Of a stretch of 64,000 bases of DNA, positions 4,672-53,531 are shown piece by piece. Below the pieces are notes generated by a model, which worked only from the letters and a program-made list of their open reading frames with translations, was not told the DNA's origin and did not search any database. The stretch comes from Sinorhizobium sp. 8-89 (GTDB lineage Bacteria > Pseudomonadota > Alphaproteobacteria > Rhizobiales > Rhizobiaceae): assembly GCF_030124325.1 (NCBI RefSeq), contig NZ_JASKLR010000005.1:124001-188000 (forward strand), read 5' to 3'. Within the stretch, counting starts at the first letter, position 1; every line of letters starts with the position of its first letter. The translations under genes and the position numbers were made by a program.

Positions 4672-5688
4672 ATGAAGAAAGGTGGCAATCCCTATTACAG
4701 CGGGCCCGTTTCGGACCATTTCGACGGCGTTCGCTTCTTCAATCCCGGCGGCACCGCGCCGCGTGGCTTCGGCGATCTGCTGCGCTGGCAGCTCGGCGGC
4801 CGCCGGACAAGATGGCCGGGCCACTATGCCAGTCCGTTCCTTCAGGGGAGACCCGACCTCAATGTCGACGGCGACGGTCTGAGGGTAACCATGGTCGGGC
4901 ACGCGACGCTCCTGATCCAGGTCGGCGGGTGGAACATCTTGACCGACCCGGTCTGGTCGCATCGCGCAAGCCCCTTCACCTTTGCCGGTCCACACCGGCG
5001 CAACGCGCCCGGCATTCTCATGGATGACCTGCCGCCGATCGATATCGTGCTCGTCACGCACAATCACTACGACCACCTCGACCTCGCCACGCTCACCGCA
5101 TTGAACGCGGAACACGCGCCACGCATCGTGACGCCGCTCGGCAACGACACGATCATCCGGCGTTCGGTCCCGAACGCGGAAATATCCGTTGTCGACTGGG
5201 GCGACCGGGTCGAGGTGGAAGACGGGATCACCATCCACGCCGAGCCCTGCCATCACTGGTCGGCACGCCGCTCCGGCGACCGGCGCATGGCGCTATGGGC
5301 CGCCTTCGTGATCGAGACGCCGGCCGGCAAGATCTATCATGTCGGCGACACCGGCTTTCACGACGGCATCAACTATCGTGCCGCCCGCGCCAAGCACGGT
5401 TCATTCCGCCTCGCCAATCTGCCGTTCGGCTCCTACGAGCCGCGCTGGTTCATGGCGTCCCAGCACCAGAACCCGGAGGAGGCGGTCATGGGCATGATCG
5501 CCTGCGGCGCCGAGCACGTCGCCGGGCACCACTGGGGCACGTTCCGGCTGACCAACGAGGGGATCGAGGAGCCGCTGAAAGCCCTTGAGGCAGCGCTCGA
5601 AAAGGCCGGCATAGAACGGACGCGGTTCAGGGCATTGCGTCCCGGCGAGGTCTTCGACGTTCCCGCCGCCGCAAAGAGCGCCGAATAA
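4672..5688 (+). CDS. Metallo-beta-lactamase-fold hydrolase (NAPE-PLD/RomA-like)
   Basis: A 338-aa metal-dependent hydrolase. The hallmark THNHYDHLD (about residues 129-137) binds the zinc ions, with further ligands in PCHHW, HVGDTGFHDG and the C-terminal GHHWGTF. The long N-terminal part with GHATLLIQVGGWNILTDP matches the group containing N-acyl-phosphatidylethanolamine phospholipase D and bacterial RomA/UlaG-like proteins. The ATG at 4672 is preferred over upstream starts because the conserved reading KKGGNPYYSGPVSDHFDG begins there. No signal peptide is visible. The physiological substrate in bacteria is not known. Confidence 0.85.
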   Translation: MKKGGNPYYSGPVSDHFDGVRFFNPGGTAPRGFGDLLRWQLGGRRTRWPGHYASPFLQGRPDLNVDGDGLRVTMVGHATLLIQVGGWNILTDPVWSHRASPFTFAGPHRRNAPGILMDDLPPIDIVLVTHNHYDHLDLATLTALNAEHAPRIVTPLGNDTIIRRSVPNAEISVVDWGDRVEVEDGITIHAEPCHHWSARRSGDRRMALWAAFVIETPAGKIYHVGDTGFHDGINYRAARAKHGSFRLANLPFGSYEPRWFMASQHQNPEEAVMGMIACGAEHVAGHHWGTFRLTNEGIEEPLKALEAALEKAGIERTRFRALRPGEVFDVPAAAKSAE

Positions 5689-5781: not shown

Positions 5782-6687
5782 ATGGCCGACAGCGTGCAAT
5801 TTGCCAGGATGAACGGGCTTGGAAACAAGATCCTGGTCGTTGACATGCGCGGCCGGAAGGATCGCGTGACGCCTGAAGCCGCCATTGCGCTCAATGCCGA
5901 TCCGGCCACGGAATTCGATCAGATCATGGCGATCCACGATCCCAAGGCCGCCGGCACCGATGCCTGGATCGAGATCATCAATTCCGACGGATCGATGGCG
6001 CAGGCTTGCGGCAACGGCACCCGTTGCGTCGTCCAGGCGCTCGCGGCCGAAACCGGCAAGAAGGCCTTCCTCTTCCATACGGTCGCCGGCCTGCTCGAAG
6101 CGAAGGAGCATGACGACGGCACGATCTCGGTCGACATGGGAAGCCCACGTTTTGGCTGGAACGAAATCCCGCTCTCGGAGGAATTCCACGACACCCGCCG
6201 GATCGAACTGCAGATCGGGCCGATCGACGATCCTGTCCTGCATTCGCCTTCCGTTGCCTCGATGGGCAACCCGCATGCGATCTTCTGGGTCGAGAACGAC
6301 GTCTGGTCCTATGAACTCGATCGCTTCGGGCCGCTGCTCGAAAATCATCCGATGTTCCCCGAGCGCGCCAACATCTCGATCGCCCGCGTCCGTTCGCCTC
6401 AGGAAATGGATCTCAGGACCTGGGAGCGTGGCACGGGGCTGACGCTTGCCTGCGGCTCGGCCGCCTGTGCCGCCACCGTCAGCGGTGTCCGGACTGGCCG
6501 GACGGAGCGGACGGTGACTGTGAACGTTCCGGGCGGGCCGCTCCTCATCGAATGGCGCGAGCGGGACGATCACGTGATCATGACCGGACCGGCCGAGTGG
6601 GAATGGTCGGGCACCGTCGATCCAGCCTCCGGCGCCTTTCAGCGCGACGGCGCTCCGGCTGGCGACAGCGGAGCACAGGCACTTTGA
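5782..6687 (+). CDS. dapF: Diaminopimelate epimerase
   Basis: DapF (301 aa) converts LL- to meso-diaminopimelate for lysine and peptidoglycan synthesis. The two catalytic cysteines are in [12 protein letters not shown] (about residue 76) and [15 protein letters not shown] (about residue 223), both intact. Start choice is open: ATG 5782 gives the family length, but a GGAGG at 5758-5762 stands 4 nt before an in-frame TTG at 5767, which would add five residues. The downstream mtaB start overlaps its stop as TTGA, so the two genes are translationally coupled. Confidence 0.96.
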
Positions 6688-7958
6688 GCGGCGTCGAGGT
6701 CATAACCTTCGGCTGCCGCCTCAACACCTATGAATCGGAAGTGATGCGGGCCGAAGCCGAGAAGGCGGGGCTGAACAACGCCATTCTCGTCAACACCTGC
6801 GCCGTAACCGGCGAGGCCGTGCGCCAGGCGCGCCAGGCGATCCGCCGTGCACGGCGCGACAACCCGCACGCCCGCATCATTGTCACCGGCTGCGCCGCCC
6901 AGACGGAGAAGGAAACCTTTGCCGAAATGGCCGAGGTGGATGCAGTGCTCGGCAACGAGGAAAAGCTAAAGAGCGCCTCCTATCGCTCGCTACCGGATTT
7001 CGGCGTCTCAGCGGAAGAAAAGCTCCGCGTCAACGACATAATGAGCGTCACGGAAACCGCGCCCCAGATGGTGAAGCATATAGACGGGCACGTGCGCGCC
7101 TTCATCCAGGTGCAGAACGGCTGCGACCATCGCTGCACCTTCTGCATTATTCCTTTCGGCCGCGGCAATTCCCGCTCGGTACCAATGGGCGCGGTCGTCG
7201 AACAGGCGCGCCGGCTTGTCGAAGGCGGCTATCGCGAGATCGTGCTGACCGGCGTCGACGCGACGAGCTATGGCGCCGATCTACCGGGAACGCCGACGCT
7301 CGGGCTGCTTGCCAAGACGCTGTTGAAACAGGTGCCGGACATCCTGCGCCTGCGCCTCTCCTCGATCGACAGCATCGAGGCCGATCGGCATCTCCTCGAT
7401 CTGATCGCTGACGAGCCGCGCTTCATGCCGCATCTGCATCTTTCGCTCCAGCACGGCGACGACCTCATTCTGAAGCGCATGAAGCGGCGGCATTCGGGTG
7501 CCGATGCCCGCGCCTTCTGTGATCAGGTGCGGCGCCTAAGGCCCGAGATCAGCTTCGGCGCCGACATGATCGCCGGTTTTCCGACCGAGACCGAGGCGAT
7601 GTTCGAGAATGCCGCGCGCCTCGCGGCGGACTGCGGCATAGCCCACCTGCACGTCTTTCCTTACAGCGCTCGCCCCGGCACGCCGGCCGCACGGATGCCG
7701 CAGGTCGATCGGGCGCTCGTCAAGGAGCGCGCCGCCCGTCTCCGCGCGAAGGGCGCCGAGCTTCACGCCGCGCACCTTGACCGAATGGTTGGCGGCGAGC
7801 AGTCGATCCTGGTCGAGATGAACGGGCTCGCGCACACGGAAAACTTCACGCTCGTCGATGCAGCCGGCCTCGAGCCGCGGTCGCTCATTAACGTCACGAT
7901 CACCGGGCACAATGGCAAGCACCTGACGATGCAGCGAAAACAGCTGGCTGCGGCCTGA
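6684..7958 (+). CDS. mtaB: tRNA t6A37 methylthiotransferase MtaB
   Basis: A 424-aa radical-SAM methylthiotransferase that adds a methylthio group to t6A37 in tRNAs reading ANN codons. The order is the UPF0004 domain (cysteines in [20 protein letters not shown] and VTGCAAQ), the radical SAM centre CDHRCTFC near residue 147, then a C-terminal TRAM-like part. The TTG at 6684 is chosen because the protein begins exactly at the family start [16 protein letters not shown] and TTGA overlaps the dapF stop. The open frame upstream of it is only the dapF shadow. Confidence 0.94.
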
Positions 7959-49140: not shown

Positions 49141-52107
49141 CTACTTTTTCAGTTGCTCCTTGAGAGCGGCAAGCTTGGCAAAGGGCGAATCCGGATCCAG
49201 CGGCTTTTCCTTGCGCGGCGGGCGCCCCTCGAACTTCTGGCCGCCCGGCTTGCCGCCCCGATCATGCCGGTCGGGCCTATCCTTGCGCTGGCCGCCAGCC
49301 GGTCTGCTCTCCTGTGCCTTGCCGCGCATGGGCGCTCCGCCCTTGCGGCCACCTTCCCTGCCTTCGCCCTGACCGTGCCGCTGGCCGCCGCGGCGTTGAT
49401 CACCCTGATGGCGACCGCCCTGACGCTGGTTGTCCTGGCGCGTGCCGGGACGCCAAAGGAGCACGAGCTTGGCTTCGGCAGGCTCTTCCGCTTGGATCGC
49501 TTCAGCCGGCGCGTCGCCGGTTGCTTCGGCTGCCGGAGCGTCCGCCTGTTCCGTATCGGCCGGTTCGCCCTCCGCTTTTGCGTCCGCATCGGCGCTTTCG
49601 GTCTCAACGCTTTCGGCCGGCGTCTCCGAAGAGGCCACTTCGCCCCGTTGGCTTGCAAGGAACGCAGCCGCCTCTTCGGCGGTCACGCTGTCGGCGCGAT
49701 AACCAAGGCCCTTGAGAATCTCTTCCATGTCGTCAGGCGTTGCGCCGAGAATGGACAACATCGAGGTCGTCGCCATGAAACGGCGGCCATCATAGGCGCC
49801 TTCCGGACGCGGCTCGACGCCGGGTTTCCATTGCAGCAACGGGCGGATGAGATCGGCGAGCCGCTCGAGGATGTCGATCCGCACAGCCCGTTTGCCGAGA
49901 AACCGGAAGCCCGCGAGCTTGTAGAACGTCCGCTCGAACGACGGATCGGTGACGACAGAGGTACGGCCGGCTGCAAGCATCGGAATGAGTTCGCCGTAGC
50001 CGGGCTTGTCGAGCCCGTCGTTCTTCAATGCCCAGAGCAGCGTGATCAGCTCCGCCGGCGCCGGCTTCAAGAGAGCCGGCAGGAAGATATGATAGGCGCC
50101 GAAGCGAACGCCATATTTGCGGATAGACGCGCGGCCGTCCTGGTCGAGCGACTTCACCTCCTCGGCGACGTCGCGACGGAAAAGCACGCCGAGATTCTCG
50201 ACGAGCTGGAAGGCCAGGCCCTTGGCGAGACCTTCGAGGTCCTCCGCCCGGGAAATGTCGTCAAGCGGCTTCAGCACCGTGCCGATATGGTGATTGACGA
50301 ACCGTTCGATCCGAACCAGCACATGCTCGCGGGCATTGGCCTGGAGCTGTTCGTCCGCGAGCAGAATGACGCGGGGACGCATGACGTGGTCACTGGCGGT
50401 AAGCCGCGCCACGGGATCGCCGAGCCAACGCACGAGGCCGTCCGACGAAAGCGCCAGATCACCGTTGCCGGCCGCGTGCAGGCGGGCAGCCCGCGCCTCG
50501 AATTCAAGCGCAAGCGCCTTCTGGGCAGCGCCCTGGACGGCCTTCGCATCCGACCCCTCGCCACCGGCCGCCAACGTGAACCGGAACCCGGTCAATTGGC
50601 CTACGTGGTGTCCCTCGACGAAGACATCACCATTCACACTGATTTCAGCTTCCAGCATCGCATTCTCTCTCAGGCGCTTCATGAGCACAGATGTCCTGCG
50701 ATCAACAAAGCGTTTCGTCAACCTTTCATGTAGCGCGTCGGACAATCGATCTTCAATTTCCCGCGTCTTTTCTTGCCAGTGTGTCGGATCGGCAAGCCAT
50801 CCGGGCCGATTGGACACATAGGTCCAGGTCCTGATCTGCGCAATTCGCGCCGAAAGTGTGTCAATCTCGCCGTCGGTGTGATCCGCGCGGCGGACCTGCT
50901 CGGCCATGAAGTCTTCGTTGACCGTGCCCTCGCGAATGAGATCGGCGTAGATCGTCGAAATCAGGTCGGCGTGCTGCGCCGGCGTTATGCGCCGGTAGTC
51001 GGGCAGCGCACAGGCTTCCCAGAGCGTCTCGACCCGCTCGGCCGTGGTCGCGACGTCAACGATCTCGGGGTAACGCATGAGATGCTCGAGCGCCTGCTGA
51101 TCGACGGCCGGAAGCGCGCGCGTCAGACCAGCAACAGCCGGCGCCGCCTCGAGGCTTTTCTTGAGCGCCTTCAGCGAGGAATAGTCGACCGCCTTCGAGC
51201 GCCATTGCAAGACCTTGACGGTATCGAATTCGTGCGACTCCATCCGATGCACAAGTTCGTTGTCGAAGGGATCGACGCGTCCGGTGACGCCGAACGTGCC
51301 GTCCCGTACGTGCCGGCCCGCCCGTCCTGCGACCTGGGCGAGCTCTGCCGGGTTGAGATTCCGATACTGATAGCCGTCGAACTTCCGGTCCTGCGCGAAG
51401 GCGACATGGTCGACGTCGAGATTGAGTCCCATGCCAATGGCATCGGTCGCCACCAGGTACTCGACGTCTCCCTCCTGATAGAGCGCGACCTGGGCGTTGC
51501 GGGTGCGCGGCGAAAGCGCCCCAAGCACGACGGCGGCGCCGCCGCGCTGTCGCCGGATAAGCTCGGCGATCGCATAGACCTCGTCCGCCGAGAAAGCGAC
51601 GATTGCGGAACGATGCGGGAGCCGCGTGATCTTTTTCGACCCGGCGTAGAGAAGCTGCGACAGGCGCGGGCGCTCGATGATCGTGATCCCCGGCAAAAGC
51701 TGCTGGAGGATCGGCCGCATCGTCGCGGCACCGAGCAGCAGCGTTTCCCCACGGCCGCGCAGATGCAGCAGGCGGTCGGTGAAGATGTGGCCACGCTCCA
51801 GGTCGGCGGCAAGCTGCACCTCGTCGATTGCGACGAACGACGCCGTCGTCTCGCGCGGCATGGCTTCGACCGTGCAGACCGAATAACGCGCCCGGTGCGG
51901 CGCGATCTTCTCCTCGCCGGTGATCAGCGCGACGTTATGGTGGCCGACCTTCTCGACGAGACGCGTATAGACCTCGCGCGCGAGCAGACGCAGCGGCAGA
52001 CCGATGACGCCGCTGTCATGCGCAACCATGCGCTCGATCGCATAGTGTGTCTTGCCGGTGTTGGTTGGTCCGAGCACCGCGGTCACGCCGCGACCACTCA
52101 GGATCAT
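49141..52107 (-). CDS. mgpS: SUV3-like ATP-dependent RNA helicase (MgpS)
   Basis: A 988-aa superfamily 2 helicase of the SUV3 kind. Motif I is GPTNTGKTHYAIERM right at the N terminus, then VAIDEVQLAADLERGHIFTDRLL (II), LGAATMRPIL (III), and VATDAIGMGLNLDVDHVAF with QVAGRAGRHVRDGTFG (V, VI). Residues about 850-985 are low complexity: first acidic and Ala/Glu-rich, then basic Gly/Arg/Gln-rich, ending KLAALKEQLKK. ATG 52107 gives the compact family start; ATG 52140 would add 11 residues. The gene symbol is from memory of the Sinorhizobium annotation. Confidence 0.88.
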   Translation of the reverse strand: MILSGRGVTAVLGPTNTGKTHYAIERMVAHDSGVIGLPLRLLAREVYTRLVEKVGHHNVALITGEEKIAPHRARYSVCTVEAMPRETTASFVAIDEVQLAADLERGHIFTDRLLHLRGRGETLLLGAATMRPILQQLLPGITIIERPRLSQLLYAGSKKITRLPHRSAIVAFSADEVYAIAELIRRQRGGAAVVLGALSPRTRNAQVALYQEGDVEYLVATDAIGMGLNLDVDHVAFAQDRKFDGYQYRNLNPAELAQVAGRAGRHVRDGTFGVTGRVDPFDNELVHRMESHEFDTVKVLQWRSKAVDYSSLKALKKSLEAAPAVAGLTRALPAVDQQALEHLMRYPEIVDVATTAERVETLWEACALPDYRRITPAQHADLISTIYADLIREGTVNEDFMAEQVRRADHTDGEIDTLSARIAQIRTWTYVSNRPGWLADPTHWQEKTREIEDRLSDALHERLTKRFVDRRTSVLMKRLRENAMLEAEISVNGDVFVEGHHVGQLTGFRFTLAAGGEGSDAKAVQGAAQKALALEFEARAARLHAAGNGDLALSSDGLVRWLGDPVARLTASDHVMRPRVILLADEQLQANAREHVLVRIERFVNHHIGTVLKPLDDISRAEDLEGLAKGLAFQLVENLGVLFRRDVAEEVKSLDQDGRASIRKYGVRFGAYHIFLPALLKPAPAELITLLWALKNDGLDKPGYGELIPMLAAGRTSVVTDPSFERTFYKLAGFRFLGKRAVRIDILERLADLIRPLLQWKPGVEPRPEGAYDGRRFMATTSMLSILGATPDDMEEILKGLGYRADSVTAEEAAAFLASQRGEVASSETPAESVETESADADAKAEGEPADTEQADAPAAEATGDAPAEAIQAEEPAEAKLVLLWRPGTRQDNQRQGGRHQGDQRRGGQRHGQGEGREGGRKGGAPMRGKAQESRPAGGQRKDRPDRHDRGGKPGGQKFEGRPPRKEKPLDPDSPFAKLAALKEQLKK

Positions 52108-52290
52108 GGATTGAAAGGACACTTCATCGATCCCGGGCATTCTCAACGAGCCGGCGCGCCTTCGCGTGCCGGCGGGGAACACATGCCCACGCTCCGGGGC
52201 AAACGCAAGGGGCGCGAGCAATTAAAACCACTTACGGCCCCCTCCGGGAGCCATATTTCGTGCCTCCACATTAACACTTGGAACAGCGGT

Positions 52291-52317
52291 GGAACGAATC
52301 AGCGACGAATCGCTGAC
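52291..52317. repeat. 27-bp direct repeat, copy 1, with internal hairpin
   Basis: Begins GGAACGAATCAGCGACGAAT and ends CGCTGAC. It contains CAGCGA-CGAA-TCGCTG, a perfect 6-bp stem with 4-base loop, and two CGAATC motifs 11 bp apart, each a GANTC site. Copy 2 is at 52573-52599 with one base changed. Confidence 0.9.
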
Positions 52318-52666
52318 TCACGCCGATTCACTGTATGTTCACGGCTACATGTAGTTCGCCAGAGCAAGAGTCGCACCACATGCTGAATCTTCTGGAACAT
52401 CGTGCAAACCGATGCCCTCGGCGGCGTTAATGTTTCCTTCCAGATTGTTAATCGCCATCAAGGATTCGGAATCCAAGACTCTGGAAAGTTTAGAAAATTT
52501 TAACCCGGATTCGTCTGCGGACTCGGCGAATCAAGGAATGAGAATCGTCACCTTAACCTTTCGATCAAAGCCGGAACGAATCGGCGACGAATCGCTGACA
52601 CGACTACTTTCCCGTTTTGTTCACCACAACATATAGGGGCTAAGGTGCCTTCGGGACAATAGAATC
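52296..52666. promoter_or_regulatory. Cluster of 16 GANTC (CcrM) sites
   Basis: Sites start at 52296, 52307, 52315, 52325, 52368, 52385, 52463, 52469, 52477, 52508, 52520, 52528, 52542, 52578, 52589 and 52662. Random expectation for about 370 bp at this GC content is one or two. CcrM methylates GANTC in the alphaproteobacterial cell cycle. The block lies upstream of the helicase gene. Function is inferred, see findings. Confidence 0.85.
52573..52599. repeat. 27-bp direct repeat, copy 2
   Basis: Identical to copy 1 at 52291 except for A to G in the left hairpin arm (CGGCGA-CGAA-TCGCTG), which keeps pairing as a G-U wobble if transcribed as the plus-strand RNA. The distance from copy 1 is 282 bp. 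Confidence 0.9.
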
Positions 52667-52741: not shown

Positions 52742-52776
52742 CAGAAAACAAATGCGGCGCCTGAAAGGGCGCCGCG
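52742..52776 (-). terminator. Rho-independent terminator of phbAB
   Basis: GCGGCGCC (52754-52761) and GGCGCCGC (52768-52775) form a perfect 8-bp stem with TGAAAG loop; on the minus strand ATTTGTTTTCTG follows. It lies 30 bp beyond the phbB stop. Confidence 0.85.
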
Positions 52777-52805: not shown

Positions 52806-53531
52806 TCAGACGAAGAACTGGCCGCCATTGGCCGAAATCGTCGAACCGGTGATGAAACCGGCGTCGTCCGACGCCAGGAACACGACGCAACGGGCGATTT
52901 CTTCCGGTTCGCCGAGACGCCCGACGGGGATCTGCGGAATGATGCGTTCGTTGAGCACCTTTTCCGGTACGGCCCTGACCATCTCCGTGCCGATATAGCC
53001 CGGGCAGATCGCGTTGACGGTGATTCCCTTTGCCGCCCCTTCCTGCGCCAGCGCCTTGGTGAAGCCGAGATCGCCCGCCTTCGCCGCGGAATAATTCGCC
53101 TGGCCCATCTGCCCTTTCTGACCGTTGATCGAGGAGATGTTGATGACGCGTCCGAAGCCGCGGTCACGCATGCCCGACCAGAGCGGATGCGTCATGTTGA
53201 AGAGACCGGTCAGATTGGTGCTGATCACTTCGCCCCATTGTTCCGGCGTCATCTTGTGGAACATCGCATCACGGGTGATGCCGGCATTGTTGACGAGAAC
53301 GTCGACCGGTCCGAGATCGGCCTCCACCTGCGCGATACCGTCGGCGCAGGCCCGATAGTTGGAGACATCCCATTTGTAGACGGGGATGCCGGCCTCCTGC
53401 TTGAAGGCCTGGGCCTTCTCGTCATTGCCGGCATAGTTCGCTGCCACCTTGTATCCCGCCGCTTTCAAAGCCACCGAAATGGCTGCACCGATCCCGCGGG
53501 ATCCACCCGTAACCAACGCTACCCTGCTCAT
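52806..53531 (-). CDS. phbB: Acetoacetyl-CoA reductase
   Basis: PhbB (241 aa) reduces acetoacetyl-CoA with NADPH to (R)-3-hydroxybutyryl-CoA for polyhydroxybutyrate. It is a short-chain dehydrogenase: cofactor loop VTGGSRGIGAAI near residue 8, NNAG, and the catalytic Ser/Tyr/Lys in NISSINGQKGQMGQANYSAAKAG. The start MSRVALVTGGSRG at 53531 has good homology; the upstream residues do not. It follows phbA by 178 bp on the same strand and ends in a terminator. Confidence 0.96.
   Translation of the reverse strand: MSRVALVTGGSRGIGAAISVALKAAGYKVAANYAGNDEKAQAFKQEAGIPVYKWDVSNYRACADGIAQVEADLGPVDVLVNNAGITRDAMFHKMTPEQWGEVISTNLTGLFNMTHPLWSGMRDRGFGRVINISSINGQKGQMGQANYSAAKAGDLGFTKALAQEGAAKGITVNAICPGYIGTEMVRAVPEKVLNERIIPQIPVGRLGEPEEIARCVVFLASDDAGFITGSTISANGGQFFV

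Follow-up and report, generated by a model that had tools for sequence, protein, structure and literature searches.

What accounts for the crowding of recognition sites of the methyltransferase CcrM (GANTC) in the short gap between the genes mgpS and phbB of Sinorhizobium sp. 8-89? The gap, flanked by two minus-strand genes, lies within the 64,000-nucleotide stretch of DNA that was analysed as a whole (the window), part of a genome of 7.06 Mb in 103 contigs. The presumed target gene, mgpS (49144-52140, minus strand), encodes a Suv3-like DEXQ-box helicase (Pfam DEXQc_Suv3 and Helicase_C) of 999 aa, counted from a presumed start at the long ORF's residue 28, the point from which several relatives show similarity. 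It corresponds to SMc03877 and is raised by acid stress in S. meliloti, as described for that species (PMC4941405). On the far side, phbB (52806-53531, minus strand; TIGR01829) encodes an acetoacetyl-CoA reductase, and a terminator-like hairpin 3' of it (52754-52775, minus strand), recognised by pattern scan only, lies between the phbAB genes and the array; the scan found three such sites against 0.9 expected in shuffles. The answer favoured here, held tentatively and at somewhat less than even confidence, is that the gap may contain a cis-acting control array of mgpS, built of tandem composite operator modules and tying expression of the helicase to CcrM methylation and to LexA.

A first-pass annotation of the locus had pointed to 16 GANTC in 371 bp (52296-52666) of gene-free, AT-rich DNA, with short intervals, where one or two sites would be expected, and this description holds throughout. 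All 16 sites are present, at successive intervals of 11, 8, 10, 43, 17, 78, 6, 8, 31, 12, 8, 14, 36, 11 and 73; no gene is evident in the gap, and its GC content is 0.488 against 0.625 for the window. Composition of the segment predicts 1.42 sites (Poisson probability of at least 16, ~3e-12) and the genome mean 0.68. GANTC also stands out as a word, since 16 of the window's 110 sites fall in the segment, 25 times the window rate, the next ratio among the 12 commonest XYNZW words being 6. The second-densest 371 bp of the window hold 4 sites. A density scan that took in 667 kb of the genome (all 366 kb of contig C38 and 301 kb from the starts of 20 other contigs, at most 20 kb each; the other 6.4 Mb lie outside the sample) recovered no window of comparable density, the runner-up having 5 sites per 371 bp. 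In a relative with a complete genome (G001), of which ~0.8 Mb was sampled, the orthologous cluster has 14 sites and the runner-up 7. In the sequence sampled from both genomes, no cluster of CcrM sites is denser than the array.

Comparison of the gap among relatives gave matches to the region in 33/33 genomes of the genus, and the 30 loci examined (not the other three) contain 12-17 GANTC per 371 bp. The cluster stands as it had been described, but the conserved feature is larger, comprising two modules and a partly conserved spacer; the annotation had overlooked the tandem modules, the SOS-type box that they contain and their conservation across the order. Two tandem copies of a ~110-bp module lie upstream of mgpS, 282 bp apart (direct repeats 52267-52354 and 52549-52636), and relatives have one to five copies. 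Before copies were counted, modules were dropped if they scored no more than 40 bits or had truncated flanks, as were copies more than 80% identical, and the resulting nonredundant sets comprise 134 of 186 proximal and 136 of 174 distal copies.

The mgpS-proximal module with its edge element, followed here in the sense of mgpS, spans 52271-52389 (minus strand), as defined by nhmmer matches and the consensus of the 134 proximal copies. It begins with the edge element GATTCAGCATnTGGTG (52374-52389, minus strand; consensus), whose AT centre is separated by 31 bp from the centre of the next palindrome in 88/92 measured cases. This palindrome, CnAnATnTnG (52345-52354), appears in the consensus of both copy sets, with per-position counts taken from the 101/134 proximal and 73/136 distal copies that were anchorable, the anchoring itself favouring the pattern. 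It is followed by a degenerate SOS-like direct repeat, GAAC-N7-GAA (52326-52340, minus strand), oriented opposite to the GTTC box and present as GTGAACN7GAA in 97/134 proximal and 55/136 distal copies. Next come twin YGATTCG sites (CGATTCG and TGATTCG, starts 11 bp apart; 52295-52312, minus strand), which are of the GcrA-type extended CcrM motif, and GTTCCACCGCTGTTC (52281-52295, minus strand), a GTTC-N7-GTTC element of SOS (LexA) box type. The proximal consensus reads GATTCAgcATnTgGTG-N18-CnAnATnTaG-cc-GTGAACAaA-n3-tGAAtc-n5-GAGTCAgcGATTCGTCGCyGATTCGTTCCagnctnGTTCCaa-nn-gttaa.

The distal module (52553-52640, minus strand), a direct repeat of the proximal one at 282 bp and defined by the consensus of the 136 distal copies, has a palindrome at 52627-52636, GTGAACA at 52618-52624, twin GATTC at 52578-52582 and 52589-52593, a degenerate GTTC-N7-GATC at 52563-52577 and GTTAA at 52553-52557. 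Its consensus has CnAnATnTtG, GTGAACA, GAA and GATTCGTCGCyGATTCGTTCC in common with the proximal one and differs at the end (GgcTtTGnnC..gTTAA). The inter-module spacer (52390-52548) contributes seven further GANTC and the palindromes GGATTCSGAATCC (52462-52474) and AGASTCT (52476-52482), as seen in an alignment of 25 nonredundant relatives from the genus and its nearest neighbours (5 of 30 aligned sequences were dropped as more than 90% identical). Both palindromes, apart from a C/G swap at the centre, are near-invariant across the genus alignment (52462-52482).

A sigma-70 promoter inside the module (TGGTG-N18-CnAnAT) was considered and rejected; the spacing fits, but key -10 positions are variable and the conserved ones palindromic. 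A sigma-70 scan found no promoter within the array. By eye, a promoter-like stretch can be recognised in this genome between module and mgpS, ~60 bp past the module.

The module extends well outside the genus. The family search gave matches in 120/199 genomes and 70/109 genera, mainly as repeat units, and an iterated profile gave 413 matches across loci, some genomes being counted more than once. A 21-mer from the module, with up to 3 mismatches allowed, occurs in the whole genome at the two modules only (a reversed control pattern matched once). Loci carrying the exact 21-mer were also picked from public genomes (scan loci), a choice that speaks to exclusivity to mgpS and not to frequency. 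Genera named for the scan matches listed include Rhizobium, Mesorhizobium, Brucella, Bartonella, Hoeflea, Nitratireductor, Chelativorans and Ahrensia. Among the matches listed, the module is upstream of mgpS in 107/107 scan loci that contain the mgpS start; in these 107 the first module lies 81-277 bp (median 153) upstream of that start, copies number one (13 loci), two (77), three (8) or four (9), and module spacing has quartiles of 270, 274.5 and 283 bp, with extremes of 196 and 1754. Five copies occur in one family locus. Eleven of at least 118 scan loci are outside these counts, namely ten without an mgpS match and one (L202) with a C-terminal mgpS match only; eight of the ten have the module within ~165 bp of the end of the stretch, and in L141 and L196 it lies ~600-1000 bp from the end with no mgpS seen. 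In the plasmid collection, matches were found from phbB onward only.

Loci from other families of the order and from other orders of the class were taken, independently of the motif, as the best mgpS matches outside the family or outside the order, and lean to near relatives. The module was found at E<=1e-4 in 23/27 order loci (best 27 of 95), L066, L079, L084 and L086 having none at that threshold, and in 4/28 class loci (L290, L305, L300 and L292; best 28 of 46). By these comparisons the module is an old one, common across the order, and it can be followed into other orders of the class. The number of GANTC per locus varies, with a median of 10 and a range of 3-23 in the 99 scan loci for which a full 1 kb is available (among the matches listed), and only 3 and 5 in two Bartonella loci. 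Further modules occur past intervening ORFs in L147 (~5428-5528 and 6680-6771) and L110 (~6767-6862); perhaps genes were inserted between modules there, or the modules serve other genes too.

The twin YGATTCG is found in 117/134 proximal and 105/136 distal nonredundant copies. The exact twin is rare elsewhere, with two occurrences in the 667 kb sampled from this genome, both of them in the array, and one in 800 kb of G001. Both sites match YGAKTCK, the extended motif proposed for GcrA/CcrM promoters and quoted for Caulobacter; B. subvibrioides is described as showing no preference for an extended motif (PMC7987155). The genome encodes GcrA (PF07750, 221.8 bits, contig C13) and a RAMA-domain protein (PF18755, 68.1 bits, contig C1) that fits CcrM. 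In S. meliloti, GcrA is reported to bind fully methylated probes more strongly than hemimethylated and these more strongly than unmethylated ones (PMC3667746), and for Caulobacter and Agrobacterium it has been suggested that promoters which read methylation serve as replication timers (PMC3667746, PMC11514494). For E. meliloti, one account gives GANTC as ~2 times commoner in intergenic than in coding DNA, lists 111 candidate CcrM-regulated genes and describes promoters of cell-cycle genes as not enriched in GANTC (PMC8725594). The four module-bearing class genomes are among the five with top PF07750 scores (at least 169.9 bits; best 28 of 46 class loci; Fisher p 2.4e-4), an association for which the cut was chosen post hoc and which kinship explains equally well.

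A further element, GTTC-N7-GTTC, is the SOS box of Caulobacter (PMC9578287) and is concentrated in the copy next to mgpS. Within a 210-bp stretch it is present in 123/134 proximal versus 23/136 distal copies, and exactly behind the GATTCG twin in 102/134 and 15/136, respectively; its GTTC half-sites are almost invariant in the consensus and the spacer is variable. Promoters of lexA carry the same type of box in 8/8 genomes, this one and seven relatives (e.g. GTTCCATATGTGTTCC), recA upstream stretches in only 4/8. Upstream of mgpS the box occurs in 22/27 order loci (best 27 of 95), against 0/27 in 400 bp of the gene itself. It is absent within 400 bp upstream of mgpS in 28/28 class loci (best 28 of 46), the module-bearing L290, L305 and L300 included, and among the four module-bearing class loci L292 alone has one, 885 bp upstream. 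In 58 of the 123 proximal copies with a box, a GANTC lies within it. The recA upstream box of two Sinorhizobium loci (L319 and L323), ~190 bp before the domain start, has GATTC in its spacer, and methylation within SOS boxes might be a wider phenomenon.

GANTC is retained beyond the modules in Sinorhizobium/Ensifer. The retention rate is 0.82 for the seven spacer sites and 0.27 for the rest of the spacer positions (permutation p 5e-5, 25 nonredundant relatives), and GANTC in the genus spacer reaches 11.6 times expectation, rank 1/16 among palindromes, in 14 loci that are related and thus non-independent. In the genus alignment the middle base varies and GA-TC is kept at 52368, 52477, 52520, 52528, 52578 and 52589, whereas the proximal twin sites show no variation in the middle base, indicating that the whole sequence, and not GANTC alone, is constrained there. 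Over the whole array, 17% of retained GANTC cells have a different middle base, compared with 14% for positions that do not overlap GANTC (11% for all positions), and middle-base freedom is weak as a standalone statistic. Outside the genus, between-module GANTC is at 1.65-1.76 times expectation, rank 4/16 behind CGNCG, AANTT and GCNGC. An order-wide enrichment had at first appeared to be 3.2-fold and fell to these values once the conserved edge site was removed, and the claim of GANTC enrichment is therefore restricted to the genus. The weight that the annotation gave to GANTC is borne out to that extent: it looks selected as such in the genus and is not special between modules outside it. The modules, then, are old, and the extra GANTC density is particular to Sinorhizobium/Ensifer.

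These patterns bear directly on the best-surviving alternative, a plain multi-factor operator bound by LexA and a palindrome-binding protein, for which GANTC would be no more than part of the recognition sequence and methylation would have no role. It is in keeping with the fixed middle base of the proximal twin, with a SOS box and palindrome conserved as well as the GANTC sites and with the lack of special enrichment between modules outside the genus, but it sits poorly with the six genus positions at which GANTC is kept despite a change of middle base and with the first rank of GANTC in the spacer of the 14 related loci, and we consider it fairly unlikely. A methylation-read switch on mgpS is plausible, because GANTC looks selected in the genus and the twin sites fit the GcrA-type motif.

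As a control array of mgpS, the locus would be methylated by CcrM at its GANTC sites. Once methylated, the twin YGATTCG would be bound by GcrA, which might spread over the array, and LexA would occupy the GTTC-N7-GTTC of the mgpS-adjacent copy. Since the array lies near the inferred origin, it would turn hemimethylated early in most genomes measured; within the genus (gidB and the inferred origin being ~100 kb away) early replication would leave it hemimethylated soon after initiation and until CcrM returns. In the hemimethylated state the array would be occupied by GcrA differently, which would time mgpS expression in part by replication, and DNA damage would add a second input via LexA. A more elaborate form of this proposal, which we regard as doubtful, is that one operator array joins the methylation clock and the SOS response, with GcrA and LexA competing or cooperating, the helicase being licensed once per replication round and on damage, and the one to five modules tuning the response.

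The nearness to the origin raises the question of whether the array is itself an origin. The annotation had doubted this, having seen no DnaA boxes, and rightly so: GC skew, the position of gidB and a DnaA-box scan all speak against it. In G001 the GC skew flips near 3.33 Mb and gidB is at 3.328 Mb, with the array at 3.233 Mb (~95 kb off), and the reading as a replication origin was rejected. In the present genome gidB lies 99 kb from the array on the same contig (C38), and the array contains a single match to the DnaA box with 2 mismatches (52620-52628) and none closer. Adjoining the distal module on its far side, TTATCCACA, a DnaA box, occurs in L052 and TTATCCACC in L038. Two sampled 20-kb stretches of G001 near the inferred origin (contig C1, 3136688-3156687 and 3321199-3341198) have 64 and 63 GANTC, the other 38 sampled stretches 13-52.

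A replication- or nucleoid-linked site that merely happens to be located at mgpS is a related possibility, in which the array would titrate GcrA, CcrM or LexA or serve as a platform for a reader of hemimethylation, with no role in mgpS expression. The very high site density, the multi-copy layout and the DnaA-box-like sequences in L052 and L038 agree with such a function, as does the distance to gidB (measured from the array or, in order genomes, from the mgpS match; G116, with two contigs, and G130, whose place is not listed, are left out). Across 11 Sinorhizobium genomes this distance spans 93-111 kb, and in 15 of 18 further genomes it spans 109-474 kb. Of the remaining three, G290 (no module found) has ~0.5 Mb, G065 has 801 kb and G282 (mgpS match) has 990 kb. 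However, the array keeps its place immediately upstream of mgpS where gidB is hundreds of kb away, 13/107 scan loci have a single copy and the median of 10 GANTC per kb in 99 scan loci (both among the matches listed) is few for a sink; the closest match to a DnaA box in this array, moreover, has 2 mismatches. We judge a site of this kind unlikely, and control of mgpS remains the preferred reading.

Conservation of the module, in one to five copies upstream of mgpS, goes without signs of coding or of RNA folding. Small RNAs in tandem, or a structured leader whose transcription runs toward mgpS, would agree with the regular spacing of the units, with one of seven stretches of this locus that folds clearly better than shuffles (z -3.4) and with a terminator-like hairpin at 52233-52255. 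Nevertheless, consensus folds are near zero (-4.0 to -0.8 kcal/mol, first 60 rows per set), the fifth position of an apparent hairpin in the mgpS sense pairs in only 38% and 37% of copies, and the sole listed Rfam match, outside the modules, scores 20 bits where 46 are needed (E 0.69), which makes an RNA very improbable. That the cluster is a fragment of a small-protein gene, with GANTC arising from Asp/Glu-Ser codons (GAN-TCN), can hardly be credited: a 74-codon Asp/Glu-Ser-rich ORF is open on the plus strand at 52412-52636, from the spacer through the distal module, and its frame has no stop in 24 codons in 93/109 and 77/84 anchored copies, yet conservation is about the same at all three codon positions, the modules of some relatives have single-base gaps and the spacer of L014, L025 and L029 has an in-frame TAG.

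The best-known examples of CcrM/GcrA control are Caulobacter promoters that have few sites. The array resembles GcrA/CcrM promoters (ctrA P1 of Caulobacter; gcrA and repABC-Ch2 of Agrobacterium) in its clustered regulatory GANTC, extended motif and origin-near place, and differs from them in its tandem modules. For such promoters, 6 GANTC in 250 bp were described as strong over-representation (PMC11514494), compared with 16 in 371 bp here. Its GTTC-N7-GTTC is of the type described for Caulobacter (PMC9578287) and seen in the lexA promoters above, as in LexA operators of Alphaproteobacteria, but the array combines the box with CcrM sites, often with GANTC inside it, and with degenerate repeats. 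Known GcrA and LexA sites overlap promoters, those of GcrA near -10/-35; the module is at most a candidate for such an overlap, the promoter-like stretch recognised by eye lying ~60 bp past it. The MucR-shielded hypomethylated GANTC promoters reported in S. meliloti (SMa1635 and SMa2245; PMC5172544) are similar in placing CcrM sites within regulatory DNA, which in the array a bound protein might also shield. A high density of methylation sites in the wider neighbourhood of the origin is also a property of SeqA/oriC and datA, methylation or titration sites of enterobacteria, which differ in the methyltransferase involved, and here there is no close DnaA box and the tie is to one gene.

No account of the array was found among the titles and abstract openings listed by full-text literature searches; it may stand in a supplementary list of a ChIP or methylome study. 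In most order loci examined the array is tied to one gene, and it brings methylation-clock and SOS-type elements together. As the densest cluster sampled, with a one-gene tie and both types of element, it offers a defined place to test the joint reading of replication-coupled methylation and DNA damage. If the proposal is true, the Suv3-like helicase MgpS would be linked to cell-cycle or genome-maintenance control.

Between the array and mgpS, positions 52233-52262 (minus strand) hold an SD-like GGAGG, a 10-codon ORF (MAPGGGRKWF) and the terminator-like hairpin. A similar 10-codon ORF is found in 6/30 genus loci, this one included (e.g. MARGEGRKQF and VARGGGRKRF), and is absent in the others; it could be a leader peptide of near relatives.
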